NCBI GenBank assembly: GCA_016931995.1
Contig: JAFGDS010000042.1
Span: 124,001 to 188,000 of the forward strand
Length of the DNA: 64,000 bases
Direction of reading: 5' to 3'
Origin: Pirellulales bacterium
GTDB lineage: Bacteria > Planctomycetota > Planctomycetia > Pirellulales > Thermoguttaceae
A program made the translations under genes and the position numbers. Below, piece after piece: positions 26,543-46,316 of the stretch (positions within the stretch are counted from its first letter, which is position 1; the number at the start of each line of letters is the position of its first letter). The notes beneath the pieces were generated by a model that searched no databases, was not told the DNA's origin, and saw nothing but the letters and a program-made list of their open reading frames with translations.

Positions 26543-26635
26543 TGTTGCCGTCCTCAAAACACGTCTGGGAATCGTCGCCTCTTGACGCCAAAGTGCGCAC
26601 ACGCAAACCGTTACACCATTAGCGGCTGTGCCGCA

Positions 26636-26735
26636 GGATTTTCTTAGGCATAGCTCCGGTGTCCAATGGGATTGAAGAACACGGCCCTCGGCGGTAAACC
26701 ATCCATTGGACACCGGACTCATGCCTCAAAAATCC
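26636..26735. repeat. Long palindromic element, copy B (inverted relative to A)
   Basis: Left arm 26636-26669 (GGATTTTCTTAGGCATAGCT...) and right arm 26703-26735 (...CATGCCTCAAAAATCC) are separated by 33 nt, like copy A at 8546-8648. The GC hairpin GGCTGTGCC-type flank is on the left and CCGGGCGGAGCCCGG on the right, the reverse of copy A. It lies in the 400-bp gap upstream of the phosphoesterase gene; the rest of that gap shows nothing recognisable. Confidence 0.85.
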
Positions 26736-26942: not shown

Positions 26943-29900
26943 TTAGCCGCGACGGCGATAACGGATCGCGAAGCCCGCGGCAAGCGTAATCATTAGAACG
27001 AGCATGGCCGGCTCCGGCACGGTACCGCCGCCGGCGCCGCCTCCCCAGTTGGCGGCCAGGATGGCCAGGTCCAGGTCGTCCACCGCGCCGTCGTCGTTGA
27101 AGTCGCCGTCGCCCCAGACCGCGCCGGTCGACATGAGCCAGTGGGCGGCCAGGAGCGCCGCGTCATGCTTGTCCACCTTGCCGTCGTTGTTGGCGTCGCC
27201 GGGCTTGGGGGTGGTCGTCGCCTCGACCACGCGCATCGGATCGTCGAAGCCGATGAACGCGAAGTTGAAGCTCACGTCCTCCAACAAGCCCGCCGCGCCG
27301 TTGCCCAGGTCGTTCGACTTGATGAGGAAGTCCGTTCCGTCCGCTTGATACGACAGGAGGTTGTCCTCCAGGTCGTTGACGCTCAAGAGCAACATGCCGG
27401 TCTCGGGCGACTCGTCGGCTATCGAGAGCCGGTACGTGCCGGTGCTCTCGTACGCGAGGGTGAACGCGCCTTCGTGCATCAAGACCGACCCATCGGCGCC
27501 GATCTCGCCGGCCAACAGGTTCTCGATCTCGTAGCCCTCGAACTTGCCGAAGGGCAAATAAAGGAAGCCGATATCGCCGTTGACGTACGTGCCCAGGTTG
27601 CCGGCTTGTCCGTCGTACACGCCGAGGTCCCAGCCGTTGCCGTCGAGGCGGGTGTCAATCGCGACGATCTCGTCGCCGTTGGTGCCGGCGATGGTGAACA
27701 GCAGGCCGTCCGAATGGGAGTTCACTCCGTCGATGGAGACGGTGTATTGGCCCGTCGCGGTCCGCGAGACGTTGTAGGTGCCGAGTCCGCCGACCAGGAA
27801 AGCCCCGTTGGAGCCCTGGAGATAGCCGCCGGTCCAATTACCCTCGAAATCGAAAAACGCCGTGGCCACGGGGCAGTTGTACTCGTTCGTGTTGGCCACG
27901 CCCACCGGCCCCATCCGCCCCACGGCCAGCCAGGCCGTGGCGTTCAGATCGCCCTCGTTGACGTTCATGTTGACGATGCCCCAGCGGGTTCCGTCGCCGT
28001 CGCCGTTGTCGTGGCCATTCGTCCGGGCGGTGCCCATCAGGATGCCGCTGTTGAGCGAAATCCGCTCGCCGTCCAGGGCGAGGTCGAGGTCGCCGCGGTT
28101 CGAGTTCGAGATGGCAAACCGCTCGGTGGCCTGCCGCTTGAACGTGACCGGGTCGTACACGGCGTGGGCGTCCACCTCGGCGTTGTTGTTCCCCGTCCCG
28201 TACTGCGTCATCACGAAATTGCCGGCCGAAGCCTTGGTCAGATCCAAAGGCGCGCGGAGCGTCGGATTGGCGACCGGCGCGGCGTACTTGAGAAACGCGA
28301 AGGAGAACTCCGTGTTGGACATCGTGGCCTGGCCCGCGTCGTTGGTGTCCAGCCCGTGGATGAGGAAGCTGTTTCCGTCGGGGGCATAGGTCAGGATGTT
28401 GTCGCTGCTGTTGTTCCACTCGCTGGACGTCAACAGCAGGACGCCCGTGTCGGGGCTCTCGTCCTTGATCGTGAGCCGGTACGTGCCGGGGACAATGGTG
28501 GTGCCGTCGAGCTGGTAGACCTGCTCGATGAGGAAGTCGCCCGTCCAGGCGAGCCGGCCGCCGTCGGCGCCGATGATGCCGGCGGTGAGATTCTCCGTCC
28601 CGAAGGGCAGATAGGCGTAACCGAAGTCGATGCCGCGGTACGCCTGGGCCTTGTTGTGGCAGCGGACGATCCATCCGAGGCCGTCGGCGGTCGCCCCCAT
28701 CGAGACGTACGACGCCTCGTTGCCCAAGGCGTTGCCGATCAGCACGCCGTCCTTGCGGGTGTCGCCGCTGCCGGGCAGGCGGAGCTGGTACACGCCGTCC
28801 AGGATCGGCTGATAGCCGACCTGGAATCCGCTGTTGTACGGGAAGACGGCCGCCACCACGTTGCAGTCGAACTCGTCCCACACGGCCGCGTCGGCGTTGC
28901 TCGTGTGCGTTGAGATCTCGTAGCCGTTGCCCGTGATCGACGGGGCGGAAATACCCCAGCTATTGGCCCCGTAGACGGCCGGCACCGGCGGAAGAGCCAG
29001 GTCGTCGCCCTCCTGCACGATGACGCCGCTGTTGTCCCGTCTATTCTCGCAGACCTGGGTGAGAATGACTCCCCGCGCGGCCGCGAGGTTACCATCCTTG
29101 TATTTCACTTGCAGGTCGGCGCGGTTCGAGTCGGCCTGGTCGGGCCAGAGGTCGAACTGCGCGTCGCTCGTGCCCATCCGCGTGATGATCGGCACGGTGC
29201 CGTATCCCTCCGCGTAGCCGTCCCGCGCCTGAATTTGCCATCGGGCGAACGCGACGGGCTCGGTTCCGAAGGGGTTTTCGGCCGCGGAGCCCAGCGCGGG
29301 GGCGTTGGCGAAATCGACGAAGGCGAAGTTGAACCCCGTGGCCTTGGCCTGGGCTTCGCCGGGGCCGGGGGCCGCGGGATCGACGTACGTGCCCTGGTAG
29401 CCGTGGATCAGAAAATCGCCGCTTCCGTCCGTGGCCTGCTCGTAAACGAGGAAGGCGTTGCCCGCCGCCTCGCCGCCCGTGGTGGCCGTCAGAAGCAACA
29501 TGCCGTCCTCCGGCGTCTTGCCGTCGATGTGCAGGCGGTACACGCCCGGGTAGGAAGCGCCCGTCTCCGGGGTCACCGTGAAGCCGGTCCCCTGGCTGCT
29601 CTGGACAACGCCGTCGGCGCTGACGCTGCCCATGATGACGTTCTTGGTGGCCTCCTCGCCGTAGGGCAGGTAAACGTAGTTGTAATGGGCGTTTTTGTTC
29701 TCCCAATTGCGGCCGTTAATGCCGTAGACGTTCACGTTCCAGCCGTCGCCCGTGGCCGTGGGCGAGGCCGCGGCGTAGGTGTCCGTGTTGCCGAACCCGT
29801 TGACGAACAAGAGGCCGTCGGTGCGGCTGTCCACCCCGGCGGTCTTCACCGTGAGGACGTCCTGTCCGGTGGCGTTTTCGGTGGGCTCGGCGACGCCGGC

Positions 29901-31379
29901 GGCCCAGCCTTGCTTAAAGGGGAAGTACCCCACCGCGAAGTTCACGTTGAACTCCATGCGGTTGGCGGCATCGGCCACTTGGGTCGAGACCTCCCAACCC
30001 CAGCCGTCGGGTCCGCCGTCGTCGGGGGCGAAGGGGCAAGCCACGCCGACGCCCCACCCGCCGCCCGTCGCGTAGTTGCTGCGGAAGTCCTCGCGCACGG
30101 TGGCCAACATCACGCCGTCCTGAAACCGGGCATGGTTGCCGTCGATCGCGATCGCGTTGTCGCCGCGGTTCATGTTGATCATGGTCACGCGGGCGGTCGA
30201 TTGGGCAACCGCCGATTCCATGCCGTGCTGCGTGTTCACGCCGCTAAACTCCGTCACGGCAACGTTGGCCGCGGTGACCTGGGCCGTGTGGTCCACGCGC
30301 TGGCGCGGCGGGCCCGGCGCGGTGGGCGTCTGGTCGAACGGGATGAACGCGAAGGAGAACGCCGTCCGGCCCCAGCCGTAGGACAAGGCCGGCTCGCTGC
30401 CGTCCGAGCCGCTTAGATCGCGCAGCGTGATCTCGTAGTCGTTGCCGACGATCTGGTAGGTGAGCACATCGTCGTCCGTGGAGTACCGCCCGCCGGCCGG
30501 CGTGACGATGAGCGTGCCCTGCGTGGGCGTGTAGTCGCCCAGCGACAGCCGCACCACGCCGTCGGTCTCCGTGGCCGAGGCCGTGAAGTTGCCCGACCCG
30601 TTGACCACCCCGCCGCACCCCGTGACCTGGCCGAGCACCATGCCGGGCGTGTCGTAGGGCAGAAAGACGAAGCCCACCGGGCTGGTGTAGTAATTCACGC
30701 CGTTGCGGTTGTTCGGGTGGCTCATCAGCGAAAACGAGCCGTCGTAGTTCGCCTGCGTCATCGCGTAAAGATGGGGATTGGCAGCGCCCGCGTCGCCGCT
30801 GAGATTCACGCCCAGCAGGATGCCGTCGGTGAAGGGGTTTACGCCCGGGATCCAAATCTGATTCACTCCGGAGCCGTTGTCGTAGTAGTGCGTGCCCATC
30901 TGGAGCCCGCCGGTCGCGGTCAGCGTGTCCATCGCGCCGGTGAGCGCTCCGTCGACGCGGGTGGCGTAGCCGGCGGTCCAGCCTTCGGAGAACGGAAAGT
31001 AGGCCGCGGAGACGTCGACGTCGCCCGCGGTGGGCGTGGCGGCCTGGGCGATGGTCGTGACGATCGTGTAGCGTCCGCCCGCGAAGCCGGCGCTGGGCGT
31101 GTAAACGTACCCGTCGCGGAGGTTCTCGGACACGGTGGGAATGAGCACGCCGAGGGCGAAATCGTCCGCCGCGTCCGCGCCGATCCGGATGGCGTAGCGA
31201 CCGGTCGTGCTGGCCGCCGAATCGACGAAGAAGCTGGCCGTGGCTTCGCCGGGCCACGTGCCGTAGTTACCCGGCAGGTTCGACAAATTGCCGCATTCGA
31301 TGGCCGCCGCGGGACTGCCCGAGGCCATCACCCCGGCCAGCGCCGCCATGAGCACGATAAGGCACTTGTTCCCACGCAT
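26943..31379 (-). CDS. Giant four-unit PEP-CTERM/dockerin surface protein
   Basis: A 1478-residue exported protein with signal peptide (LIVLMAALAGVMASGSPAAA). The body is four homologous units. Each ends in a matching strand: FSFAFIPFD at 341, FNFAFVDFA at 683, FSFAFLKYA at 1025 and FNFAFIGFD at 1371, spacings 342, 342 and 346. Each also has an FLPY/YLPF-type motif about 100 residues earlier (240, 571, 924, 1275). Dockerin-like calcium loops at 1393-1447 and a PEP-CTERM anchor at 1454-1478 follow. ATG 31379 has AAGGAG 7 nt upstream. Last gene of an operon with a lipoprotein and a prepilin-like protein. No known enzyme domain; a surface-layer, adhesive or stalk role is inference. Confidence 0.87.
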   Translation of the reverse strand: MRGNKCLIVLMAALAGVMASGSPAAAIECGNLSNLPGNYGTWPGEATASFFVDSAASTTGRYAIRIGADAADDFALGVLIPTVSENLRDGYVYTPSAGFAGGRYTIVTTIAQAATPTAGDVDVSAAYFPFSEGWTAGYATRVDGALTGAMDTLTATGGLQMGTHYYDNGSGVNQIWIPGVNPFTDGILLGVNLSGDAGAANPHLYAMTQANYDGSFSLMSHPNNRNGVNYYTSPVGFVFLPYDTPGMVLGQVTGCGGVVNGSGNFTASATETDGVVRLSLGDYTPTQGTLIVTPAGGRYSTDDDVLTYQIVGNDYEITLRDLSGSDGSEPALSYGWGRTAFSFAFIPFDQTPTAPGPPRQRVDHTAQVTAANVAVTEFSGVNTQHGMESAVAQSTARVTMINMNRGDNAIAIDGNHARFQDGVMLATVREDFRSNYATGGGWGVGVACPFAPDDGGPDGWGWEVSTQVADAANRMEFNVNFAVGYFPFKQGWAAGVAEPTENATGQDVLTVKTAGVDSRTDGLLFVNGFGNTDTYAAASPTATGDGWNVNVYGINGRNWENKNAHYNYVYLPYGEEATKNVIMGSVSADGVVQSSQGTGFTVTPETGASYPGVYRLHIDGKTPEDGMLLLTATTGGEAAGNAFLVYEQATDGSGDFLIHGYQGTYVDPAAPGPGEAQAKATGFNFAFVDFANAPALGSAAENPFGTEPVAFARWQIQARDGYAEGYGTVPIITRMGTSDAQFDLWPDQADSNRADLQVKYKDGNLAAARGVILTQVCENRRDNSGVIVQEGDDLALPPVPAVYGANSWGISAPSITGNGYEISTHTSNADAAVWDEFDCNVVAAVFPYNSGFQVGYQPILDGVYQLRLPGSGDTRKDGVLIGNALGNEASYVSMGATADGLGWIVRCHNKAQAYRGIDFGYAYLPFGTENLTAGIIGADGGRLAWTGDFLIEQVYQLDGTTIVPGTYRLTIKDESPDTGVLLLTSSEWNNSSDNILTYAPDGNSFLIHGLDTNDAGQATMSNTEFSFAFLKYAAPVANPTLRAPLDLTKASAGNFVMTQYGTGNNNAEVDAHAVYDPVTFKRQATERFAISNSNRGDLDLALDGERISLNSGILMGTARTNGHDNGDGDGTRWGIVNMNVNEGDLNATAWLAVGRMGPVGVANTNEYNCPVATAFFDFEGNWTGGYLQGSNGAFLVGGLGTYNVSRTATGQYTVSIDGVNSHSDGLLFTIAGTNGDEIVAIDTRLDGNGWDLGVYDGQAGNLGTYVNGDIGFLYLPFGKFEGYEIENLLAGEIGADGSVLMHEGAFTLAYESTGTYRLSIADESPETGMLLLSVNDLEDNLLSYQADGTDFLIKSNDLGNGAAGLLEDVSFNFAFIGFDDPMRVVEATTTPKPGDANNDGKVDKHDAALLAAHWLMSTGAVWGDGDFNDDGAVDDLDLAILAANWGGGAGGGTVPEPAMLVLMITLAAGFAIRYRRRG

Positions 31380-31419
31380 CACAAAGCTCCTTATTCTCGC
31401 GAACCGTTGCAGGGACTGC

Positions 31420-31878
31420 TTATTTTAGGTCAATGGGCTCCAGCGCGTTGTCGCCCTCGGTGATCGTGACCGTGATGCCTGACTTCGCGGCGTCGGCGTA
31501 CCGGCCTTTGAGCTGGTCCGCGACGTAGCCGGGCGATTCCGATTTCTCTTCCGGGCCGTTGGGCCAGGTGATCACGACATTGTACTCGCCCGGCGGCGCC
31601 CCGTCGCTATACTTGTACGTCCCCAAAACGAACGTCCCGTCCGCCTGCGCCTGCGCGCGGGGTAATACCTTCTTGAGATCCGCGTCTCCCGCGGTCGTGT
31701 ACAGGGTGATCCGGGCGTACTGCATCGGCTTGCCGCGGAACGTGACGGTTCCCTTGGCCGGATAGGTCTTCAGGAAGTCCTTCTTGCCACCGCAGCCGAT
31801 CAGCGCGACCGCCACCAGCGCGGCGCAAACCCAACGTCCGCCCGCCGCCCACCTGCCTCGCTCGCGCGTCGCTTGCAC
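31420..31878 (-). CDS. Small lipoprotein with carboxypeptidase-regulatory-like fold
   Basis: A 152-residue lipoprotein: signal sequence ending in the lipobox VALIGCGG, then a beta-rich domain (YPAKGTVTFRGKPMQYARIT, FVLGTYKYSDGAPPGEYNVV) of the carboxypeptidase-regulatory type that is very common in planctomycetes beside DUF1559 genes. GTG at 31878 is preceded by GGGGGAG with 6 nt spacing, better than the TTG overlapping the upstream stop. Lies 33 nt downstream of the DUF1559 gene and 40 nt before the giant surface protein. Confidence 0.85.
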   Translation of the reverse strand: MQATRERGRWAAGGRWVCAALVAVALIGCGGKKDFLKTYPAKGTVTFRGKPMQYARITLYTTAGDADLKKVLPRAQAQADGTFVLGTYKYSDGAPPGEYNVVITWPNGPEEKSESPGYVADQLKGRYADAAKSGITVTITEGDNALEPIDLK

Positions 31879-31910
31879 AACCGTCTCCCCCGCGAATGGG
31901 GCCCAGTGCG

Positions 31911-32915
31911 TCAATAACCGGTTCGATCGACGATTTCGCCGCCGTCGGGTGTCATCAGGGCGATAAACAGACGCGGATCGACCTCGTCGGACAGAAACGT
32001 GGCCGAGCCGTCGGCAAACGGGAAGATCGCTCCGCCCGCGTGGAACGAGAAGATCTCGTTATCGTTGTGACAATTAAACAGCTTCCCGCCGAGACATTCC
32101 GTATGGAACACGAACTCGGCCTCGCGGTCGCCCCAGGCCGCGCCCGTGACGACGCCACTGCTGGGCGGCGGATGGTCGTCGTTGGCAAAAAACTCCGGCC
32201 GGCCGCCGTCTTCCGCGAAGGCGTACGTGTACGACGTGCCGTCGGTCACGTCGGCCGCCGTGAGGGTTTGATTGACGATCTCGTTCTTCGTGTTTCGATA
32301 AATCGGCCGAAGGAGACTCTCCGGGCGCTTCGATACGTCCGAGGAAATGATTCCGGCGTTGACCAGATAACGCCACGCGTCGCTGTCGTAGTTCACCGAC
32401 CGGCACACGGCGTAGTCCGACACGGCATACTGCAGCCCGCTTGCGGCGGTCACGACGTCGGGCCCCGGCGAGCTTGGGCAGCGAAACACGGAAATCTTGG
32501 CGGTGGCGATGACGCCGTTCTCGGTCGTGTATTGCCCAAACGGTCCGGTGAACGTTCCGTTGCGGTACCATTCGTGGCCCAAGTCGTATCGCTCGGACAG
32601 CGGCACTTGCTCGATGTAAGGCAACAAAAAAGCCATGACGTTGTGCATGGGCAGATGCGCGCCGATGTCGACAAACGCCGGCGGGAAAGACCGGTGCGTG
32701 TTTTCGTATTGCGCGACGGCCAGGCCGAGCTGGCGGAGATTGCTCGTGCAATGGGCGCGGCGGGCGGCCTCGCGGGCGGCCTGCACGGCCGGCAGCAAGA
32801 GCGCGATCAGCACGCCGATGATCGCGATGACAACCAGCAGCTCCACGAGCGTGAAGCCGCGCCGAGAACGCATTCCGCCCAAACCGGTTCGCCGCCCTGG
32901 AATTCCACGAGCCAT
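31911..32915 (-). CDS. DUF1559 prepilin-like protein
   Basis: A 334-residue protein with the leader [26 protein letters not shown], the DUF1559 hallmark [20 protein letters not shown], and the C-terminal [18 protein letters not shown]. The peptidase site is after the Gly preceding FTLVE. ATG 32915 has GGAAAGGGG upstream. It heads the operon encoding a lipoprotein and the giant surface protein, suggesting joint export or assembly. The upstream region contains a strong terminator and promoter pair described separately. Confidence 0.92.
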
Positions 32916-33195
32916 GGCTTTCCCCTTCCTTTCAGGTCCCCGACTGGGTTATTCGCCGACGCGATTGTGACGCGGCCTCGTGAGCGTTTCGTTGCGGCCG
33001 TGTTCGCGTTTCGTTACGGCCTCGCCACCCTTGTTTGACCGACGTTGGGAATGGACGGTTGACTATCCTGATTCTAACCGTGCCCGCGCGGCCCACAACG
33101 AAAAGCCGAATCGAAGCGGGGCGCGCGTGCGGGTTTTCTTGCCGAGGGGTGCATATTTATCCTCGCGATGGCGCAGTCGCGTATATTCATTCACG

Positions 33196-33366
33196 TCAAA
33201 TAAAAAGGCCCCACGGCGCGCGCCGCGGGGCCTTCTCGAATTCTCTTGGGCCCGCCCAACGTGATGTGAATGTCGCGTTCCGCTCTCGCCCGCGCACAAG
33301 ACTCCGGATGAAGAGATGATCGTTCGCCGCGCGTCCGTTCTCCGTCGCGCGACGTCTCCGCCGCGC
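33196..33366 (-). ncRNA. Candidate small RNA or attenuated leader
   Basis: A minus-strand promoter-like pair at 33373-33402 predicts initiation near 33366, and a strong intrinsic terminator with a T-rich tail ends at about 33196. That would yield an RNA of about 170 nt with no convincing open reading frame. It lies 280 bp upstream of the prepilin-like operon and on the same strand, so it could be a free small RNA or a leader whose termination controls that operon. Evidence is from sequence signals only. Confidence 0.45.
33201..33234 (-). terminator. Strong intrinsic terminator between divergent genes
   Basis: AAGGCCCC and GGGGCCTT pair perfectly and the stem continues through CGGCG/CGCCG after one mismatch. 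On the minus strand the hairpin is followed by TTTTTATTT; on the plus strand there is no T-tract. It therefore stops leftward transcription, yet the next leftward gene only begins at 32915, so it ends an unannotated transcript. Confidence 0.8.
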
Positions 33367-33372
33367 GCACCC

Positions 33373-33402
33373 TTCATACCGCGTTGGGCAACCTCCTGTC
33401 AA
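33373..33402 (-). promoter_or_regulatory. Minus-strand sigma-70-like promoter
   Basis: TTGACA at 33402-33397, an 18-nt spacer, then TATGAA at 33378-33373. Its -35 box is part of a 9-bp inverted repeat (TGTCAAGCG at 33397-33405 and CGCTTGACA at 33433-33441) shared with the plus-strand promoter, so the two promoters are mirror images about a common centre. Confidence 0.5.
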
Positions 33403-33435
33403 GCGATTTCCCCGCGGCGAACCGGAGAATCCGCT

Positions 33436-33465
33436 TGACAAAGGCGGCGAAAAGCCGGTAGACTT
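33436..33465 (+). promoter_or_regulatory. Plus-strand sigma-70-like promoter for the SorC regulator
   Basis: TTGACA at 33436-33441, an 18-nt spacer, TAGACT at 33460-33465. Predicted start near 33472, just ahead of the palindrome at 33482-33497 and 40 nt before the ATG of the SorC-type gene. Confidence 0.6.
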
Positions 33466-33481
33466 ACCCATGTAGCCATTC

Positions 33482-33497
33482 GTGCATATCTATTCAC
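33482..33497. promoter_or_regulatory. Candidate SorC operator, autoregulatory site
   Basis: GTGCATATCTATTCAC is an imperfect palindrome with symmetric pattern GTGnATAnnTATnCAC (12 of 16 positions). It lies about 10-25 nt after the predicted transcription start and 15 nt before the regulator ATG, a classic roadblock position. Similar sequences precede the next operon (34681 and 34711). Confidence 0.5.
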
Positions 33498-33511
33498 TAC
33501 GGGGCGTCTCC

Positions 33512-34510
33512 ATGTCCCGAAACATCGACGAGAAGCTCCTGATCCTCGTGGCCAAGCTCTATTACGAGGAGGGCAAGAGCCAGGCGGAAGTGGCCGAAAT
33601 GCTCGACGCCTCGCAGGCCAAGGTCTCGCGCCTGCTGAAGCTGGCCCGCTCGCGCGGGATTATCCGTATCACCGTGGCCCAATTCGAGCCCCGGCACACG
33701 GCGTTGGAGCTGGAACTCCAGAAGCGGTTCTTCCTCCGCCACGTCGTCGTGGTCAAGCAGCCGGCCAAGGCCACGCCCGTCCAGGTCCGCGGCATGGTGG
33801 GCCACGCCGCCGCGCCCACCGTCGCGCAGCTCATTCCGCCCGGCGGGATCGTCGGCGTCGCCGGCGGGCGGACGCTCCACCAGGTCATCAATTGGGTCAA
33901 GGGGGAAAACGCCAAGGGCGTTCGCGTCGTGCAGCTCATGGGCAGCATCGAGGCGAACACGAGCGCGCTGGACGCCATCGAGCTGGGACGCACGCTGGCC
34001 GAACGGATGCAGGGCGCGTTCTACGCCTTGAACGCCCCGGCGATCGTGTCCGACCGGACCACGCGGGACGTCTTTCTCCGCCACGATCAGATCCGGGGAA
34101 TCTGGGACCTGTACAAAAACGTGGACGTCGCCCTGGTTGGCGTCGGATCGCTCGACGACTCCGTGTTCATCGAACGCCGCGTCTTCAGCCCCAAGGATAT
34201 CGAATACCTCCGCCGGCAGGGCGCCGCGGGCGAGATCCTCGGCCGGTTCTTCGACCACGAAGGCCAGGAATGCCAGACCGTCTTCCGCGACCGCGTCATC
34301 GGCATGGAGCTCGACCGCGTGCGGGCGGTCAAGGAAGTGGTCGGCGTGGTGGTCGGCGCCGATCGCGCCGCGTCGGTCCGCGCGGCGATGCGCGGCCGGC
34401 TGCTGAAGTCCCTGGTGATCGACCAGGCCGGCGCCGAGGCCATCCTCGCCCCCGAAGACCAGGCCGCAAAACGCCGCACGAAACGGGCGGAGACAGGATT
34501 GACAAGATGA
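33512..34510 (+). CDS. SorC-family sugar-responsive transcriptional regulator
   Basis: A 332-residue regulator. N-terminal helix-turn-helix (residues 10-55: LAKLYYEEGKSQAEVAEML followed by SQAKVSRLLKLARSRGI) and a SorC-type sugar-phosphate-binding domain (about 60-320; GIVGVAGGRTLHQVI, VVQLMGSI, DVALVGVGSLDDS, GEILGRFFDHEG). These repressors are usually released by a phosphorylated sugar. ATG 33512 is chosen; an upstream GTG at 33482 falls in the candidate operator. The stop codon (34508-34510) lies inside an inverted repeat, so the last residues GLTR are repeat-encoded. The gene precedes a glycerol/polyol-phosphate cluster. Confidence 0.9.
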   Translation: MSRNIDEKLLILVAKLYYEEGKSQAEVAEMLDASQAKVSRLLKLARSRGIIRITVAQFEPRHTALELELQKRFFLRHVVVVKQPAKATPVQVRGMVGHAAAPTVAQLIPPGGIVGVAGGRTLHQVINWVKGENAKGVRVVQLMGSIEANTSALDAIELGRTLAERMQGAFYALNAPAIVSDRTTRDVFLRHDQIRGIWDLYKNVDVALVGVGSLDDSVFIERRVFSPKDIEYLRRQGAAGEILGRFFDHEGQECQTVFRDRVIGMELDRVRAVKEVVGVVVGADRAASVRAAMRGRLLKSLVIDQAGAEAILAPEDQAAKRRTKRAETGLTR

Positions 34511-34678: not shown

Positions 34679-34705
34679 TTGTGAATGATTATTCGCAACT
34701 AGACT
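34679..34705 (+). promoter_or_regulatory. Possible promoter overlapping candidate operators
   Basis: TTGTGA at 34679, a short 15-nt spacer, then TAGACT at 34700-34705, the same -10 box as the SorC promoter. The two operator-like palindromes at 34681-34696 and 34711-34726 would cover its -35 region and its start point. The short spacer makes this a weak call; an alternative promoter is at 34778-34805. Confidence 0.3.
34681..34696. promoter_or_regulatory. Candidate SorC operator, operon site 1
   Basis: GTGAATGATTATTCGC matches GTGnATAnnTATnCAC at 10 of 12 fixed positions. Its centre is 30 bp from that of the next site, about three helical turns, in an unusually AT-rich stretch upstream of the GDPD-glpD operon. 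Confidence 0.4.
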
Positions 34706-34710
34706 GGCAT

Positions 34711-34726
34711 TCATATATCTATGCAC
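34711..34726. promoter_or_regulatory. Candidate SorC operator, operon site 2
   Basis: TCATATATCTATGCAC shares ATATCTATnCAC with the site in front of the regulator gene (33482-33497); only its left half-site is degenerate. Confidence 0.45.
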
Positions 34727-34777: not shown

Positions 34778-34805
34778 TTGTGAGAAGGTTGGGTCGCATT
34801 AGAAT
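34778..34805 (+). promoter_or_regulatory. Sigma-70-like promoter for the GDPD-glpD operon
   Basis: TTGTGA at 34778-34783, a 16-nt spacer and TAGAAT at 34800-34805. It lies about 80 nt upstream of the GDPD start with a solo TGAGCG-family arm in between, and 50-120 nt downstream of the operator-like sites, which would suit an activator or a distant repressor. Confidence 0.45.
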
Positions 34806-34882: not shown

Positions 34883-35905
34883 ATGACAAAAACGGTTCCT
34901 TTCTTCGCCGTGTTTCTGCTGGGTCTTGCCGCCGCGGCCAACGAACCGGCGCCGGACGTGCGGGACCGCGTGCCCCTTGGCCAATTCGTCATCCAGGCGC
35001 ACCGCGGCGGCGGCGCGGAGATGCCGGAGAACACGCTCGAGACGTTCCAGTACGCTTGGCGGCTGGGCGTCGTGCCCGAGGCCGACGTCCGCATGTCCGC
35101 CGACGGCGTCGTCTGCGCCTTCCACGACCCGGACTTCTCCCGCGTCGTGAAGGACGTGCCGGCGGAGTTGAAGCAAAAAGGCGTTTCCGACCTCGCGTGG
35201 AAGGAGCTCCAATCGCTCGACGTCGGCGCGTTCCGCGGGGACCAATTCGCGGGGCAGCGCATTCCCAAAATCGAAGACGTGATCCAGGCAATGGCCGGCC
35301 ATCCGCGCCGGTGGCTCTATCTGGACGTGAAAAAGGTCTCCTTGAAACGGCTGGCCGATTGGGCCGGGCAATACGGCGTCGGGCGGCAGTTGATCCTCAC
35401 GAGCACCCACCACGACCACCTCCGCCAATGGAAACGCCTCGTGCCGGATTCCCAAACGCTCCTGTGGATGCGCGGCACGGAGGCCGAGCTGGCCGGTCGG
35501 CTGAAGGACCTCGAAAAGACGGATTTTGAAGGCGTGACGTCGCTCCAAATTCACGTGTTCATGCCCACCGCGGACGCGGAGAAGCCCTTCCGGCCGTCGC
35601 CGGATTTCCTCCGCGCCGTGGGCAAGACGCTGCGCGAGCGGGGTATCGCGTTCCAGGCGCTCGTCTGGGGCGAGCATGGGCCGGACGTGTACTCGGCGCT
35701 ATTGGACCTCGGTGTCGAGTCCTTCGCCACGGACCATCCCGAGATGACCCTTCAGGCCGTCAAGGACTATTACGCGGCGAGGAACGAGGCGGCGGCCGTG
35801 CCACAAGCGATGTTTGGGAGGCGACTCCTGTCGCCGATGGAAGTGACGGGGCTAGTCGGCGACGGGAGTCGCCTCCCACAGAGAAAGAAGGCGGAGAGCA
35901 GATGA
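34883..35905 (+). CDS. Secreted glycerophosphodiester phosphodiesterase with repeat-derived tail
   Basis: A 340-residue GDPD: signal peptide (PFFAVFLLGLAAAA), catalytic HRGGGAEMPENTLETF (residues about 40-55) with His-Arg and Glu-Asn, EADVRMSADG, and HDPDFSRV. It hydrolyses glycerophosphodiesters to glycerol phosphate and alcohol. Residues from about 311 on (FGRRLLSPMEVTG, then DGSRLPQRKKAESR) come from an inverted repeat at 35815-35878, so the native C-terminus was replaced. The stop overlaps the start of the GlpD-type gene (ATGA), hence the tail must be translated for coupling. Confidence 0.88.
   Translation: MTKTVPFFAVFLLGLAAAANEPAPDVRDRVPLGQFVIQAHRGGGAEMPENTLETFQYAWRLGVVPEADVRMSADGVVCAFHDPDFSRVVKDVPAELKQKGVSDLAWKELQSLDVGAFRGDQFAGQRIPKIEDVIQAMAGHPRRWLYLDVKKVSLKRLADWAGQYGVGRQLILTSTHHDHLRQWKRLVPDSQTLLWMRGTEAELAGRLKDLEKTDFEGVTSLQIHVFMPTADAEKPFRPSPDFLRAVGKTLRERGIAFQALVWGEHGPDVYSALLDLGVESFATDHPEMTLQAVKDYYAARNEAAAVPQAMFGRRLLSPMEVTGLVGDGSRLPQRKKAESR
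35815..35878. repeat. Inverted repeat inside the GDPD coding end
   Basis: TGGGAGGCGACTCCTGTCGC at 35815 and TCGGCGACGGGAGTCGCCTC at 35856 are inverted arms around an 18-nt loop. The element is translated as the C-terminal tail of the GDPD gene and ends 24 nt before the GlpD start. A solo arm is at 10491-10517. Confidence 0.88.
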
Positions 35906-37422
35906 TGCGGGATGACTGCGGTGATGTTCCCTCGCGCGAAACGGCGCTGGCGCGGCTGGGCGAGGGCGTGTTGGATCTCCTGGTTGTCGGAGGCGGCATC
36001 GTCGGCGCCGGGGTCGCCCGGGACGCGGCCATGCGCGGCTTGAAGACCGGACTGATCGAGCAGTACGACTTCGCCTACGGCACGAGCAGCCGTTCGAGCC
36101 ATCTCTTGCACGGCGGGCTGCGCTACCTGGCGCAAGGCCATTTGCGCCTGGTGCACGAGGCGAGCAAGGAGAAGCGCGTGGTCCACCGGATCGCGCCGCA
36201 CCTGGCCGAACCGCTGGCCTTCATCTTCCCCACGCGGCCCGGCTGGCAATGGGCCCGCTGGAAACTGAGCATCGGCGTGAAGCTCTACGACCTGCTTTGC
36301 GGGCGACGCAACCTGGGCCGATCGAGCACGCTCGGCCGGGACCGCGTGTGGCGGACGCTGCCGGGCCTCGCGCGACAAGGAATCACCGGGGCGGTTCGGT
36401 ACTTCGACGGACTCACCAACGACGCGCGGCTCGTGATCGACACGCTTCGCTCCGCCGCCAGTCACGGGGCGACGGTGGTCAACGAAGCCCGGTTCGTCGA
36501 CGCCCAGCGCGAGGACGGCTTGTGGTGGTGCGAGGTCCGCGACACGGCCGGCGACATGCCGCTGGAGGTCCGCGCCCGCGCCGTGGTCAACGCCACCGGG
36601 CCGTGGTCCGACCGGCTTCCCCACAGCCGCACCGACCTGCGCCTGACCAAGGGCGTCCACCTGGTCATCGATCGCGGCCGGCTGCCCCTGCCCGATGCCG
36701 TGGTCATGGCCGAGGGCTCCCGGATCCTCTTCGGCATTCCCTGGGGCGATCGGGTGATCCTGGGCACCACCGACACGGACTTCGCCGGCCGCATCGAAGA
36801 CGTCCGCTGCGAGGAAGAGGACGTTCGCTACGTCCTCGACGTGGTCAACGGGGCGTTTCCCGAGGCACGACTCGCGGCCGACGACCTGGTGAGCGCCTGG
36901 GCCGGACTTCGTCCCCTCGTGGCCGATCGCAACGGCAACCCCTCCGATATTTCGCGCCGCCACGAGATCCGCATGGGCGAGCCGGGCTGGTGGGACGTCA
37001 CCGGCGGCAAGCTCACCACGTATCGCCTCATGGCCGAGCAAACGGTCGACAAGGTCGTCCGCCAGGCGGGTTTCGCCGCGCGGCGGTGCCGCACGGCGGT
37101 CGAGCCGCTGCTCCCGCCCGAAGAGGTCGATGGAACCAGCGGGATCCTCCCTCCGCCGGTGAGCGAGGCAACCGTGCGGCATTACTGCCGGCGCGAATGG
37201 GCCCGGCATCTCGAGGACGTGATGGTTCGAAGGACGTTGTGGCGCTACTACCACGCCAACCACGACCGCGTCGCCCGGCGGATCCTGCCGTGGATGGCCG
37301 ACGCCCTGGGCTGGAACGAGGCCAAGGCCGAAACGGAATGGAACGCGTATCTCCAGCAACATTGCCCATCGCATTCCGGCGCGAATGAATGGCACGCGCG
37401 CAACGTACCCTCCACCTTGTGA
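35902..37422 (+). CDS. glpD: FAD-dependent glycerol-3-phosphate dehydrogenase-family protein
   Basis: A 506-residue flavoenzyme of the GlpD/GlpA type. FAD-binding VVGGGIVGAGVARDAAMRG at about 28-46, then GTSSRSSHLLHGGLRYL, a mid-domain with VNATGPWSD, VTGGKLTTYRLMAE, and a C-terminal helical domain (VRHYCRREWARHLEDVMVRR). Standard chemistry is oxidation of sn-glycerol-3-phosphate to dihydroxyacetone phosphate with electrons to quinones. Coupled by a 4-nt overlap to GDPD, which would supply glycerol phosphate. An erythritol-phosphate dehydrogenase (EryB type) is an alternative given the SorC and RpiB neighbours. Confidence 0.85.
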   Translation: MMRDDCGDVPSRETALARLGEGVLDLLVVGGGIVGAGVARDAAMRGLKTGLIEQYDFAYGTSSRSSHLLHGGLRYLAQGHLRLVHEASKEKRVVHRIAPHLAEPLAFIFPTRPGWQWARWKLSIGVKLYDLLCGRRNLGRSSTLGRDRVWRTLPGLARQGITGAVRYFDGLTNDARLVIDTLRSAASHGATVVNEARFVDAQREDGLWWCEVRDTAGDMPLEVRARAVVNATGPWSDRLPHSRTDLRLTKGVHLVIDRGRLPLPDAVVMAEGSRILFGIPWGDRVILGTTDTDFAGRIEDVRCEEEDVRYVLDVVNGAFPEARLAADDLVSAWAGLRPLVADRNGNPSDISRRHEIRMGEPGWWDVTGGKLTTYRLMAEQTVDKVVRQAGFAARRCRTAVEPLLPPEEVDGTSGILPPPVSEATVRHYCRREWARHLEDVMVRRTLWRYYHANHDRVARRILPWMADALGWNEAKAETEWNAYLQQHCPSHSGANEWHARNVPSTL

Positions 37423-37432
37423 TGATTCCACC

Positions 37433-37969
37433 GTGACCCGCATTGCCATCGACGCCGATCAAAACGGTCTGGAGATGAAACGTCTCCTGATCGAGGCAAT
37501 GCGCGCGTGGGGCTTCGAGTGCGTGGATCTGGACTACCTCGGCAGGCATCCCGAGAGCGACTATCCCGACGTGGCGCACCATCTGGCCGGCGCGATCCAG
37601 CGGAACGAATTCGACCGAGGCATTCTTATCTGTGGGACCGGTCTGGGCATGGCCATGTGCGCGAACAAGGTTCGGGGTGTGTATGCCGGCACCTGCCATG
37701 ACGTCTACTCCGCCGAGCGGCTCAGCAAAAGCAACAACGCCCAGGTGCTCACGCTCGGCGCCCTGGTCGTCGGCGCCGAATCGGCTAAGATGATCGTCCG
37801 CGCCTGGCTGCGTTCCGACTACCAGGGCGGCCCCTCCGCCCGCAAGGTGGACCGGATGCGCCAGCTTGAATCGGAATCGTTCGCGGGCGGGTCGCTTGCC
37901 GCGGTCCCTCCGCCCACCGCCGGGCGAGTGGCGCGCGCCCGCGTCGGGCCAGCCAGGCCGTCATCCTGA
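37433..37969 (+). CDS. RpiB/LacAB-family sugar-phosphate isomerase
   Basis: A 178-residue isomerase. It opens TRIAIDADQNGLEMKRLL, has the DYPD motif (about 43-46), catalytic C67 in ILICGTGLGMAM, H89/D90 in GTCHDVYSAERLSKSNNAQV and LGALVVGAE. RpiB proteins interconvert ribose/ribulose 5-phosphate; relatives act on allose, galactose or tetrulose phosphates. GTG 37433 starts 10 nt after the GlpD-type stop. Residues beyond about 150 have no family counterpart and the stop codon (37967-37969) lies in a TGAGCG-family repeat. Confidence 0.85.
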   Translation: MTRIAIDADQNGLEMKRLLIEAMRAWGFECVDLDYLGRHPESDYPDVAHHLAGAIQRNEFDRGILICGTGLGMAMCANKVRGVYAGTCHDVYSAERLSKSNNAQVLTLGALVVGAESAKMIVRAWLRSDYQGGPSARKVDRMRQLESESFAGGSLAAVPPPTAGRVARARVGPARPSS

Positions 37970-38031
37970 GCGCAGCGAAGGATCTCCTTGGGGGCATAAG
38001 AGACCAGATGCTTCGCTTCGTTCAGCGTGAC
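37960..38031. repeat. TGAGCG-family inverted pair supplying the rpiB-like stop codon
   Basis: GTCATCCTGAGCGCAGCGAA at 37960 and its inverted partner at 38006-38031 (AGATGCTTCGCTTCGTTCAG). The TGA in CCTGAGC is the in-frame stop of the preceding isomerase gene. The pair fills most of the gap to the glycerol-1-phosphate-dehydrogenase-like gene. Confidence 0.9.
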
Positions 38032-38114
38032 GCCATTGTCCCGATCTGGGCGATCGGTCTATGATTTCAGTACTGTTGTCGTTCCGTTTGATTCTGCCTC
38101 ACCCCATCGCGAAC

Positions 38115-39461
38115 ATGACCACCTCCCCCGACGCTCTCCTCCACAACGCTCTGGCGGACGCCCGTCAAACGAAGGCGTTGGAAGTCGGCGTCGGCGCGCT
38201 CGCCCGCGCCGCGGCCGCGTTTCGCGGCTGCTTCGGCGACAAGCCGGCCCTGGTGGTCGCCGACACGAACACGTGGCGGGCGGCCGGCGCCCGGACGGTC
38301 GAGCTTCTGCGGGCCGAGGGCGTGCCGCTGGCCGATCCGCTCGTCTTCGAGGCCGCCGGCCTGTCGGCCAAGTACGTCCACGTCGAGCGGGTCCGGGCAG
38401 CGCTGGCCGGAGGCGACGCGGTGCCCGTGGCGGTCGGCTCGGGCACGATCAACGATCTGGCCAAGCTGGCCGCGCACGAGTGCGGCCGGCCGTATCTGGC
38501 CGTGGCCACGGCGGCCTCGATGGACGGCTACACGGCCTTCGGCGCGTCGATCATGCACCGGGGCCTCAAGCAGACCTTCTCCTGCCCCGCCCCCCGCGCC
38601 GTCGTCGCCGACGTGGACGTGTTGCGCCGCGCGCCGTCGGTTCTCAGCGCGGCGGGCTACGGCGATCTCGCGGCCAAGTCGCCCGCCGGCGCCGATTGGA
38701 TCGTGGCCGACGCGCTGGGCATCGAGCCGATCCACGCCCGGGCGTGGACCCTTGTGCAGGGCGAGCTCCGCCCGTGGCTGGCCGATCCCGAGGGCGTCCG
38801 CCGCGGCGAACCGGCCGCGATCGAGAAACTCACGATCGGGCTGTTGATGTCCGGGTTTGGGATGCAGGCCGCCGAGTCGAGCCGGGCCGCCTCGGGCGCG
38901 GAGCACCAGTTCAGCCACCTTTGGGACATGCAGAACCACGTCCACAACGGCCAGACCCCCTTGCACGGACACAAGGTGGCCATTGGCACGTTGATGACGA
39001 CGCTGTTGTACGAACAACTCCTCAAACAGCCGATCGAAACGCTGGCGATCGACGCCGTTTGTGCCCGTTGGCCCGAGGTGGACGATCGTGTCCGCGAGGC
39101 GCAAGAGGCATTCGAGTCGGCCGATCTGAAACGCACCGCCGCCGAGGAGATCCGCGCCAAATACGTCGATCGCGCGGCCCTGGCCGCGCGGCTGCGCCGC
39201 CTGCGGGAGCGCTGGCCGGATCTGTCGCGGCGGCTGCGGGAGCAGTTGATCCCGTCGGCCGACCTGCGGGCGAAGTTCCGCTTGGCCGGCGCGCCCACCG
39301 AATCGTCATCCCTCGGCATCTCGCCCGAACGGTTGCGCCGGACGTTCTTCGACGCCCAGCACATCCGCCGTCGCCACACCGTGCTGGATCTGGCGCTGGA
39401 AACGGGGCTGCTGGGTCCCAGCGTCGAGGCCATCTTCGCCGCCCCCGTTTCCCCGGAGTAA
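38115..39461 (+). CDS. sn-Glycerol-1-phosphate dehydrogenase-like protein (EgsA/AraM family)
   Basis: A 448-residue iron-containing alcohol-dehydrogenase-fold protein of the EgsA/AraM type: VAVGSGTINDLAKLAA (about 105-120), ATAASMDGYTAFGAS (131-145), GYGDLAAKSPAGADW with D184, GAEHQFSHLWDM with H264, and LHGHKVAIGT with H286. D184, H264 and H286 are the probable metal ligands. These enzymes reduce dihydroxyacetone phosphate to glycerol-1-phosphate, known from archaeal lipids and a few bacteria. ATG 38115 is used; no clear Shine-Dalgarno is seen. Its place after GDPD, GlpD-type and RpiB-type genes suggests handling of glycerol or tetritol phosphates. It is longer than AraM (about 390) because of an extended C-terminal region. 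Confidence 0.8.
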   Translation: MTTSPDALLHNALADARQTKALEVGVGALARAAAAFRGCFGDKPALVVADTNTWRAAGARTVELLRAEGVPLADPLVFEAAGLSAKYVHVERVRAALAGGDAVPVAVGSGTINDLAKLAAHECGRPYLAVATAASMDGYTAFGASIMHRGLKQTFSCPAPRAVVADVDVLRRAPSVLSAAGYGDLAAKSPAGADWIVADALGIEPIHARAWTLVQGELRPWLADPEGVRRGEPAAIEKLTIGLLMSGFGMQAAESSRAASGAEHQFSHLWDMQNHVHNGQTPLHGHKVAIGTLMTTLLYEQLLKQPIETLAIDAVCARWPEVDDRVREAQEAFESADLKRTAAEEIRAKYVDRAALAARLRRLRERWPDLSRRLREQLIPSADLRAKFRLAGAPTESSSLGISPERLRRTFFDAQHIRRRHTVLDLALETGLLGPSVEAIFAAPVSPE

Positions 39462-39489
39462 CAGGACGACGCCTTCGCCCGAGGAAAAC

Positions 39490-40674
39490 TCACGGCGGCG
39501 GATCGCGGCTGGGATCGAAAGCCCTCTGCGCGGCGTCGTGGATGGTCCGCAGGGGAACGGAACGACTGGCGGCGATCTCGCGGCAGGATTCGTATTCGGG
39601 CGAGAATCGCGTTTGGCCGTCGGGCAGTTGGGCCACTTTGCCATCGACTGGGCCCCAGGGCGTTTCGACCCGATGGGGCCGGCGCGCCAACACGCTGCGG
39701 CTGGCCGGCCAACGGCGGATGCCCAGCGTGGGGGTCTCTTCAAACAAGATCCGTTCCAGCGACTCGACGTCCGTCGGGCGGCACAGCACGGAGAGCGCGA
39801 CACCGGGCCGATTCTTCTTCATCTGCACGGCCGTGGCGTACACGTCCAGCGCGCCGGCCTCCCACAGCCGCGCGACGCAATACCCGATCGTCTCGCCGGT
39901 CGCGTCGTCCAGGTTCGTCTCGAGCACCCAAATCTGCTCGGCAACGCCGGCCTCGGGCACGTCATCGCCCACCAAGAGCCGCAGGAGGTTGGGCTGCCCC
40001 GGGATGTCGCGGCTGCCCGCCCCGCAGCCGATCCGCCGCACGGTCATGGCCGGCAGGGGCCCAAACCGCTCGACGAGCGTGGCGAGAATGGCCGCGCCCG
40101 TCGGCGTGGTCAGCTCCGCGTCGACGGTCGACTCGGCCAGCGGAATCCCCCGGAGAAGCTCGGCCGTGGCGGGGGCGGGAATGCCACATACCCCATGGGC
40201 AATCTGGATCTTGCCCGAGCCGGTCGGGACCGCCGACGCTTCCAGCCGCTCGATCCCCAAGAGATCGAGCCCCACGATCGTGCCCACCACGTCGGCGATC
40301 GAATCGACCGCCCCGACTTCGTGAAAATGCACTTCCTCGACAGGCACGCCGTGCACGTGGGCCTCGGCCTCGGCCAGACGCCGGAACACCCGGTCGGCCC
40401 GATCCCGCTGGGCGGGCGCGAGACGGCTGCCTGTCAGCAAGCCGAGAATATCAGCCAGGCGCCGGTGGACGTGCTCCGGCGGGTGGTGGACGGTCACCTG
40501 AACACCCCGAAACCCGGACCGGCGGACCTCCTGGGCTTCCAGCCGGCAGCCGGGCAGACCGAGCGAATCCAGCGCCGCGTTCAACTCGGCCACGCCCACC
40601 CCGGCGTCGACGAGCGCGCCGAGCGTCATGTCGCCGCTGATCCCGCTGGCACAGTCGAGGTAGGCAATGTTCAT
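39490..40674 (-). CDS. larC: LarC nickel-pincer cofactor biosynthesis protein
   Basis: A 394-residue LarC (DUF111). It starts MNIAYLDCASGISGDM, with EEVHFHEVGAVDSIADVVG, TPTGAAILATLV and the C-terminal NLDDATGE and KKNRPGVALSVLC. LarC is the CTP-dependent cyclometallase that inserts nickel into the pincer cofactor used by lactate racemase and LarA-like epimerases. It is a single full-length frame, unlike the frameshifted larC1/larC2 of lactobacilli. No larA, larB or larE is nearby, so partners lie elsewhere. ATG 40674 gives the canonical N-terminus. Confidence 0.93.
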   Translation of the reverse strand: MNIAYLDCASGISGDMTLGALVDAGVGVAELNAALDSLGLPGCRLEAQEVRRSGFRGVQVTVHHPPEHVHRRLADILGLLTGSRLAPAQRDRADRVFRRLAEAEAHVHGVPVEEVHFHEVGAVDSIADVVGTIVGLDLLGIERLEASAVPTGSGKIQIAHGVCGIPAPATAELLRGIPLAESTVDAELTTPTGAAILATLVERFGPLPAMTVRRIGCGAGSRDIPGQPNLLRLLVGDDVPEAGVAEQIWVLETNLDDATGETIGYCVARLWEAGALDVYATAVQMKKNRPGVALSVLCRPTDVESLERILFEETPTLGIRRWPASRSVLARRPHRVETPWGPVDGKVAQLPDGQTRFSPEYESCREIAASRSVPLRTIHDAAQRAFDPSRDPPP

Positions 40675-40748
40675 CGGCACGGCTCGCGACGGGGTGTTGA
40701 CTCTATTCTGCCATGCAACCACCCGCCGGGCGACCCCCAGACCCGACG

Positions 40749-40777
40749 TTGACCCGGACGGGCCGCTTCGCTACAGT
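40749..40777 (+). promoter_or_regulatory. Sigma-70-like promoter for the pseudo-receiver gene
   Basis: TTGACC at 40749-40754, a 17-nt spacer and TACAGT at 40772-40777 predict a start near 40784, about 38 nt before the ATG. Confidence 0.5.
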
Positions 40778-40821
40778 ACCGCGTCGCACTGCCGATCCCC
40801 CTCTTTTAGCGGGTGCGCTCC

Positions 40822-41817
40822 ATGATGACTCCCGTTCTCACTCGATCCGGCGCCACGGCCGCCGCCGCCTTTGACGCAGGCTTGCCCGATCGAATGCGGG
40901 TTCTCTACATCACCACCACCCAGCGGACCGGAGACTGGCTGGCCAAAGCCTTTGCGGCGGATAGCGCCTCGCGGGTGGTGCTTGAGGAAGCGGTCGGCAG
41001 CATGGCCGGGTTGGCGCGGCTGCGCGACGAGATCTTCGACGCCGTCTTGGTCAGCCATCAGCCCGGCGAACTCGACGCCCTGGAGTTGATCGAGGGATAC
41101 CGCACCGGCGTGGCCGACGCGCCGATCGTCGTCCTGGGCACCGAGAGCGAGCAGGAGATGTCGGTCTTCTGCTACGAGCTCGGGGCCGACGCCTACGTCT
41201 GCATCAACACGGCCACGACGCGCAATCTGATCTGGGTGGTCGCCCGCGCGGTCCAACGCCACCGGCTCCTGCGCGACAACGCCCGGCTCCAACAGGCCCA
41301 ACAGCGCCGGCTGCAGCAAGAGCACGAGGAGGCCAATCAGCTATTGGGCCAACAGCGGGCGATGATCGAGGATCTGGAACTGCTGCAGCAGCGGTCCAGC
41401 GCCGTGCCCGCCGAGAAGTTGTGTCCGCGTCGGGCGAAGCGCGGCAAGGCCGCGGGCGCGACGTGCCGCCGGCCCGATCTACCCGATGAGTTGATCGCGC
41501 ACTACCGCGAGCTGTTGCGGACGTACGTCATCATGGGCTCCGGCAACCTGGCGTGCGAATTGAACCAATTGGGCGAATTGTTGACCGGCGCCGGTGTCAG
41601 CCCGCGCGAGACCATGCAGTTGCACCTGTATGTGCTGGAGGAATTGGTGCAGGGATTGGGCGCGCGGAGCACCCGGCACGTGATGACCCGCGCGGACCTC
41701 CTGGTGTTGGAGATCATGATCCATCTGGGCGAAGGCTATCGCGCCCGCTACCGCGAGCGCGCCGAGCCCAGCTTGCAGAAACACCTTCCTGGGTTTGACG
41801 GCGGCAACGTGAGTTGA
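40822..41817 (+). CDS. Pseudo-receiver coiled-coil protein
   Basis: A 331-residue protein. Residues about 25-145 have the response-regulator fold (MRVLYITTTQRTGDWLAKAF, FDAVLVSHQPGELDALEL, APIVVLGT, LGADAYVCIN), but the phospho-acceptor Asp is replaced by Ser in VLVSHQP and the acidic pair is missing. A Gln-rich coiled coil (about 150-190, LQQAQQRRLQQEHEEANQLL) links to a helical C-terminal region (ELNQLGELLTGAGVSPRETM followed by LHLYVLEELVQGLGAR). It is therefore probably phosphorylation-independent. The ATG at 40822 is used; an upstream GTG at 40813 is possible. Function unknown. Confidence 0.7.
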   Translation: MMTPVLTRSGATAAAAFDAGLPDRMRVLYITTTQRTGDWLAKAFAADSASRVVLEEAVGSMAGLARLRDEIFDAVLVSHQPGELDALELIEGYRTGVADAPIVVLGTESEQEMSVFCYELGADAYVCINTATTRNLIWVVARAVQRHRLLRDNARLQQAQQRRLQQEHEEANQLLGQQRAMIEDLELLQQRSSAVPAEKLCPRRAKRGKAAGATCRRPDLPDELIAHYRELLRTYVIMGSGNLACELNQLGELLTGAGVSPRETMQLHLYVLEELVQGLGARSTRHVMTRADLLVLEIMIHLGEGYRARYRERAEPSLQKHLPGFDGGNVS

Positions 41818-41848
41818 GGGCCGGTTGCCCGAAAGCCCGGCCCAGTCC

Positions 41849-41920
41849 GTCATGCCGAGCGAAGCGAAGCATCTCAAACGCCGTGGTTTCAACGAGATCC
41901 CTCGCCGCGCTCGGGATGAC
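41849..41920. repeat. TGAGCG-family inverted pair
   Basis: GTCATGCCGAGCGAAGCGAA at 41849 and GAGATCCCTCGCCGCGCTCG at 41894 form an inverted pair with an 18-nt loop in the 134-bp gap before the toroid-like gene. Confidence 0.88.
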
Positions 41921-41951
41921 GAGAGAGGACCGACGTGGGGAACCTACCCAT

Positions 41952-46292: not shown

Positions 46293-46316
46293 GGCGCGTT
46301 CCCCCGAAGCGGAAAC

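Follow-up and report, generated by a model that had tools for sequence, protein, structure and literature searches.

On the minus strand of the window, by which we mean the whole stretch of 64,000 nucleotides analyzed here, an operon encoding a DUF1559 pseudopilin, a putative lipoprotein, and a giant surface protein is preceded by a unit, U1, that is very probably a GlpP-type leader acting by conditional antitermination. This is the best filing that the sequence suggests; it goes by what the unit works like and draws on the presence of the glpP gene, the arrangement of the parts, the targets, and the possible RNA pairings. We infer the transcript, the binding of GlpP, its ligand, and which way the switch works. 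What is new is the kind of target, operons for pseudopilins and surface proteins, to which SorC-type sites add a further layer.

Divergent promoters and a predicted terminated leader

The leader promoter, P1, has the −35 box TTGACA (33402-33397, minus strand), with CGC just upstream, and the −10 box TATGAA (33378-33373, minus strand) after a spacer of 18 nt, as the preliminary description had it. The −10 box is poor, matching 4/6 positions. It lacks the final T that our consensus promoter scanner requires, which is why the scanner listed the plus promoter and gave no P1; nor did the terminator scan give the minus-strand hairpin at 33237-33202. The plus promoter, which belongs to a SorC-family regulator gene, consists of TTGACA, kept in four relatives, and TAGACT (33459-33464, plus strand), again 18 nt apart. 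Boxes and spacer had been read correctly, and the position of the −35 box is corrected here from 33436-33441 to 33435-33440. Both −35 boxes do lie inside a 9-bp inverted repeat, TGTCAAGCG/CGCTTGACA, which covers 33397-33440. Such a repeat (gap 20-40) occurs once in the window and in 0/100 shuffles, a test made after the repeat had been seen. CGCTTGACA also starts the promoter of a second window element, U2 (46449), and CGCTTGACA-N15-19-TANNNT has five matches in the genome from which the window comes (control, one). The C ahead of TTGAC is kept in the promoters of five elements, of the SorC-family regulator, and of its four relatives. Since CGCTTGACA heads U2 and other promoter-like sites, two −35 boxes facing each other account for the repeat, and the mirror-image symmetry once attributed to the region appears incidental, the two boxes sharing an upstream CGC. 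The occurrences of CGCTTGACA at other promoter-like sites, together with the retained C, also led us to reject an operator as the main cause of the repeat. The intergenic DNA search covered this genome and its genus, which consists of this one genome.

A strong hairpin with a T-tail had been placed about 170 nt into the minus transcript and before any gene, and both statements stand. The intrinsic terminator hairpin (33202-33237, minus strand) folds at −32.0 kcal/mol (shuffle mean −17.6, sd 2.96, z −4.86) with a U-rich tract behind it that extends to ~33197; minus-strand ORFs of at least 25 aa that start between P1 and the hairpin cross it or stop just behind it. From promoter and terminator, a leader RNA of ~165 nt (165-170) is predicted at 33202-33366 (minus strand). 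Its tandem motif, the putative GlpP site, reads GAGA-N4-GAGAA, with the first GAGA at 33242-33245 and the second, GAGAA, at 33233-33237 (both minus strand), at the base of the terminator. The motif lies 127 nt from the −10 box, against 51-89 nt in the other four elements of the genome. Just upstream of the motif, GGGCC (33249-33253, minus strand) would form the 5′ arm of an antiterminator stem with GGCCC (33228-33232, minus strand), which can otherwise pair with the 3′ arm of the terminator; GCGGG/CCCGC, a near alternative to this stem, was also scored. In the full U1 leader, the unaided terminator beats the constrained antiterminator by 10 kcal/mol, as would be expected if the antiterminator needs a protein.

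In the proposed mechanism, RNA polymerase would start at P1, at ~33366, and by default the GC-rich hairpin (33237-33202) would end the RNA at ~165 nt. At high glycerol-3-phosphate, GlpP, the product of a single gene, may bind the tandem GAGA-N4-GAGAA segment and favor the stem between GGGCC (33253-33249) and GGCCC (33232-33228). As this stem removes the 5′ arm of the terminator, transcription would then run on into the operon.

The first gene of the operon encodes the DUF1559 pseudopilin (31911-32915, minus strand), with a prepilin N-terminal motif and SBP_bac_10. It is followed by a gene for a putative small lipoprotein (31420-31914, minus strand), which has no Pfam match and takes its label from reading the sequence, and by the gene for the giant surface protein (26943-31382, minus strand), which carries a dockerin domain. 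The PEP-CTERM-like end of the giant protein was read by eye, and no PEP-CTERM model matched it in Pfam or NCBIfam. A metallophosphoesterase-LamG-dockerin protein (24614-26722, minus strand) is possibly encoded in the same operon. The ~280 nt between the terminator and the DUF1559 gene contain SorC-type sites and a second putative promoter, P2, so that expression may depend on the leader only in part.

The layout of promoter, leader, terminator, and gene is identical to that of a metabolite-binding riboswitch or of a ribosome-mediated attenuator with a leader peptide. We consider this reading very improbable, since no Rfam family reached its gathering score in the window (the best sub-threshold match, Thr_leader, scored 23.7 bits against 55), the part common to the leaders seems too small for an aptamer, and GlpP goes with the element, as described below. 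Thr_leader, F6, and the other sub-threshold Rfam matches were taken as generic hairpins.

Recurrence of the element with GlpP

The genome contains five elements, U1 to U5, each with a promoter-like site, GAGA-N-GAGAA, a hairpin, and a T-rich tail. When 784,351 bases were scanned for promoter-like sites 40-260 nt ahead of a strong terminator, four pairs were found (0.17 expected), which are U1, U2 (46446-46321), U3 (contig C112), and U4 (contig C113); this enrichment is biased, because the stretches L121 and L122 had been chosen for matches to the window element. GAGA-N-GAGAA-N-GGCC at the terminator base is common to U1-U4. Genome-wide, this pattern occurs 22 times, against 3 in the reversed control; a matching hairpin and a T run follow it in five cases, U1-U4 and a fifth element, U5, with a promoter-like site of its own, TTGACT-16-TAAGAT. 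When the whole leaders of U1, U3, and U4 were aligned, they shared mainly the motif and the terminator, the only part over which the other leaders were aligned.

Each of the five is followed, on its own strand, by glycerol-phosphate or DUF1559 genes. U2 (46315-46446, minus strand), composed of CGCTTGACA-16-TATCAT, GAGATCAAGAGAA, and a terminator, is directly followed by a GDPD gene (44865-46292, minus strand). U3 precedes genes for a HAD hydrolase and GlpD, and is divergent from, and adjoins, the sole GlpP gene of the genome; its T tract stops ~12 nt ahead of a possible HAD start codon. For GlpD, the best NCBIfam match is glycerol-3-phosphate dehydrogenase, at 330.9 bits and below the cut-off of 360. 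U4 precedes a gene for a GlpT-like MFS carrier (best NCBIfam GlpT, 414 bits, below the cut-offs of 632 and 748), and behind U5 are a DUF1559 pseudopilin gene, a GDPD-LamG-dockerin gene, and two more LamG genes. The glycerol or glycerol-3-phosphate genes behind U2-U5 and behind the elements of relatives thus encode GDPD, GlpD, and GlpT-like proteins. The link of the U1 operon to glycerol phosphate is indirect, through the metallophosphoesterase in its cluster and the linkage of DUF1559 with GDPD at U5 and in a related genus (genome G034).

The preliminary description left open a choice between a small RNA and an attenuator. The attenuator part is retained here, as the genome has four further such elements, each before a glycerol-phosphate or DUF1559 gene, and as the element goes with GlpP. 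It is improbable that P1 and the terminator yield a ~165-nt small RNA that acts in trans and has no role in the operon behind it. A promoter and a terminator would suit a free-standing transcript, and ~280 nt with a second putative promoter do separate the unit from the DUF1559 gene; against this, the common part of the U1, U3, and U4 leaders is mainly motif and terminator, the elements precede genes of the same kinds on the same strand, and the U3 T tract almost reaches a possible start of the HAD gene. A trans-acting small RNA is also unnecessary, because a short RNA is the expected terminated form of the leader. A by-product role of this terminated RNA is possible.

The conditional antitermination leader finds a candidate partner in the single GlpP of the genome (G000:C112:52236-52712), which matches PF04309 at 130 bits (cut-off 27; 8.4e-38) as well as the solved chains 3kts and 1vkf. 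PF04309 was found in 7/119 family genomes and passed the cut-off in 6/119. Of the other five genomes above the cut-off, four (G116, G034, G005, and G027) have an element adjoining glpP; in the fifth, G026, GlpP is present and the element was not found, and the flanks of the GlpP locus of another planctomycete, G543, are without it. A search of related genomes had been suggested for the unit, and a model of nine elements, R1, run over the 119 family genomes at E 0.01, placed the element in five genomes, all GlpP-bearing. R1 gave 76 matches in 32 of the 119 genomes, all accounted for. Ten, at 47 bits or more, are in G000, G034, G005, G116, and G027, each with GlpP, and include a new element ahead of a GDPD gene (G027:C482) that was absent from the training of R1. 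Three are the opposite strands of hairpins of the genome studied here, and a further weak match in G034 (C188, 29.8 bits) is without the motif. The other 62, all weaker, lie in 27 GlpP-less genomes and represent 55 stretches, 7 being opposite strands of counted hairpins. GAGA-N-GAGA(A) with a T run behind it was seen in 0/55 of these stretches, whereas the same scan recovers 9/10 elements and misses only G027:C144, whose T tract is broken; these weaker matches were therefore rejected as real elements and are generic terminators.

The probability that all five element genomes fall among the six GlpP genomes is 3e-8 if drawn randomly, a figure that flatters the association because four elements were found by looking beside GlpP. 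Only the absence from GlpP-less genomes and the new G027 match are free of this choice. A second model, R2, built without U1 and U2, was searched in 803,352 bases and found U1 at 42.6 bits (E 2.2e-6) and U2 at 30.8 bits (E 7.6e-4); apart from U3, U4, U5, and the opposite strands of the same hairpins, the next match was at 17.2 bits. R2 is held out and not fully independent, because U3 and U4 were first noticed by their likeness to U1 and because the elements of the four relatives were found beside GlpP. The elements of relatives precede GlpD (G005 and G116), HAD and GlpD (G027), and GDPD (G027) genes. In G034, ~308 nt lie between the element and the earliest possible start of a DUF1559 gene, which is followed by a GDPD-LamG-dockerin gene; with U1 and U5, three of the ten elements, in two genera, thus precede DUF1559 genes.

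Alternative pairing in the ten elements

In 10/10 elements, a stem of 4-6 pairs is possible between the bases immediately upstream of the first GAGA and the terminator 5′ arm, with the tandem motif in its loop. Examples of such stems are GGGCC/GGCCC, AGGCC/GGCCU, GCCUUU/AAAGGC, and GGGCUU/AGGCCC. The summed pairing score is 141, compared with 97.3 (sd 8.4) for a null of stretches from further upstream, with 0/2000 as high. Four elements individually reach 0/2000 and six have p values of 0.075-0.28, including U1 (p 0.28), and are individually unremarkable. Judged from sequence, the potential to form an alternative antiterminator structure is present in all ten elements and stands out in their sum. 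In two alignments, 99.1% and 100% of the terminator pairs are formed, and 2/12 and 3/12, respectively, are changed on both sides.

SorC-family regulator and its predicted sites

The plus promoter precedes a gene for a SorC-family sugar-binding transcriptional regulator (33512-34510, plus strand; PF04198, 1.8e-64). A first scan with the single SorC protein gave no relative, and in the wider phylum at E 1e-60 only 1/392 genomes, the one studied here, had a match. Relatives of the regulator were found in 2/59 further genomes in a search among relatives, and an alignment scan of named genomes gave 41 loci, four of them planctomycete (L041-L044); L041 and L042 are the two relatives from the 59-genome search. 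All four loci, like the window, have CTTGAC(A/G) and a −10-like box, followed, upstream of the start codon, by a palindrome of 16 bp close to GTGAATATCTATTCAC. In the window, this conserved operator is GTGCATATCTATTCAC (33482-33497, plus strand). It stands between the regulator promoter and the start codon in 5/5 cases (the window and the four relatives), imperfectly in L042, L044, and the window, and was not seen at six more distant SorC loci. A conserved operator thus precedes the regulator gene, as autoregulation in the SorC family would predict. Like other SorC/DeoR-type regulators, this one adjoins its own conserved palindromic operator and appears to have sites at several operons.

A weight matrix made from the sites of the four relatives, with the window left out, was scored over 784,351 bases. 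The site at 33482 ranked first (24.6) and one at 34681 fourth (21.2); sites at 33149 (17.0) and 33179 (16.8) were among the best eight. The latter two form a pair 30 bp apart ahead of the pseudopilin operon, distal at 33179-33194 and proximal at 33149-33164 (minus strand). The site at 34681-34696 (plus strand) lies ahead of an operon of GDPD, GlpD-like FAD oxidoreductase, and LacAB_rpiB isomerase genes (34883-37969, plus strand). A possible partner, 30 bp on at 34711-34726 (plus strand), scores 12.0, as high as ~25 sites in the genome; this score being at background, it is considered solely for its position 30 bp from 34681. The scores therefore give one clear pair, at the pseudopilin operon, and one half-clear pair, at the GDPD-GlpD-RpiB operon. 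Behind each pair is TTGTGR-N16-TAGAATCAGG: in P2, the −35-like TTGTGG (33093-33098) and the −10-like TAGAAT (33071-33076, both minus strand), and, at the GDPD operon, the putative promoter TTGTGA-16-TAGAAT (34778-34805, plus strand). The distance from the distal site to the −10 box is 118 bp for P2 and 119 bp for the GDPD operon. Any chance figure for the TTGTGR pattern is only descriptive, because the two places themselves supplied the pattern. Site pairs with a 30-bp spacing ahead of weak promoters would hint at activation, and the SorC-family regulator probably acts through these operator-like sites on P2, on itself, and on the neighboring GDPD-GlpD operon.

The terminator of U1 sits directly before the operator-like pair, and P2 with its sites is laid out as at the GDPD operon. 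Both facts would suit a terminator acting as an insulator, which would keep stray divergent transcripts of the SorC promoter region out of a SorC-controlled P2. We regard such an insulator as very improbable, as it leaves unexplained the GAGA-N-GAGAA motif, the possible antiterminator pairing, and the match to the other four leaders.

Several further observations concern these sites. The stretches at 33149-33194 and 34681-34726, on opposite strands and with near-identical promoter-like sequences behind them, look as if one control region had been duplicated. The loci L123-L126 were included in the operator scan for carrying operator matches; L123 has SorC-type sites at 1392 and 4121, in a cluster with HEAT-repeat and PEP-CTERM/dockerin genes, and L125 has two sites 90 bp apart (9611-9716) near a gene for an organophosphate-type MFS carrier. 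A weaker SorC-type palindrome (13.8) lies at L214 12901-12916, downstream of the U5 promoter and upstream of the GAGA motif of U5, a hint that U5, too, may be under double control.

Comparison with known antitermination systems

In the available parts of one paper, GlpP of B. subtilis with glycerol-3-phosphate is described as disrupting a terminator just behind the glpD, glpFK, and glpT promoters (PMC9604022), and in those of another as binding the antiterminator and stabilizing glpD mRNA (PMC7430163). As so described, the Bacillus glpD, glpFK, and glpTQ leaders resemble the present unit in having a promoter, a terminator in the 5′ UTR, and a GlpP site before glycerol-phosphate genes, a likeness to the description in the paper rather than to the B. 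subtilis leader sequence itself. It extends to the presence of a GlpP homolog and to the leaders for glpFK (GAGAUUAAGAGA) and glpD (GAGACCACGAGA) of one Cytobacillus species, which share the tandem GAGA at the terminator base. An unannotated record of a clostridial Acetoanaerobium leader (GAGAUGGGAGA) also has the motif there. In these three leaders the form is GAGA-N3-4-GAGA, and the tandem motif is clear in 3/8 Firmicute leaders or loci compared; the pattern was not met in Planococcus (one GAGAGA), Enterococcus gilvus (represented by a leader before glycerol dehydrogenase only), Paenibacillus, or two Pseudoramibacter loci. R1 at E 1 found none of the three motif-bearing Cytobacillus and Acetoanaerobium leaders.

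The present leaders differ from those of Bacillus in their planctomycete host, in their GC-rich stems, in targets that include DUF1559 pseudopilin operons, dockerin/PEP-CTERM-like surface operons, and a HAD hydrolase, and in the combination with SorC-family operator-like sites. BglG/LicT and ANTAR systems also use a protein-stabilized antiterminator that overlaps a terminator, with a different protein family and a different RNA motif from the GlpP-type leader. Titles and opening lines of abstracts in the papers searched gave nothing on GlpP or glycerol antitermination in planctomycetes.

From a biological perspective, a broader reading, which we hold tentatively and judge somewhat less probable than its contrary, is that the tandem GAGA is a general GlpP recognition element across phyla and that planctomycete GlpP captured DUF1559 operons. 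The pseudopilins and the giant dockerin protein would then make up a glycerol-3-phosphate-induced surface apparatus that scavenges glycerophosphodiesters or other organophosphates. DUF1559 pseudopilins are present in many copies per planctomycete genome, and we know of no settled role for them. An RNA switch tying three DUF1559 operons, in two genera, to glycerol-3-phosphate would provide a testable physiological cue, which would extend to the giant surface protein and link a poorly understood surface-protein family to the use of glycerol phosphate. For GlpP, whose antiterminator family has solved structures (3kts and 1vkf), a specific RNA motif is proposed as well.

U2 and its GDPD gene (44865-46446, minus strand) lie ~13 kb from U1, with the GDPD-GlpD operon between them, so that the window looks like a glycerol-phosphate island. 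Stretches similar to the first 399 aa of the giant protein were seen in seven further family genomes, three of them with GlpP. Behind the GDPD-GlpD operon, the region 38027-43208 (plus strand) holds large ORFs, two without a Pfam match and one with a weak match to RsbU_N.
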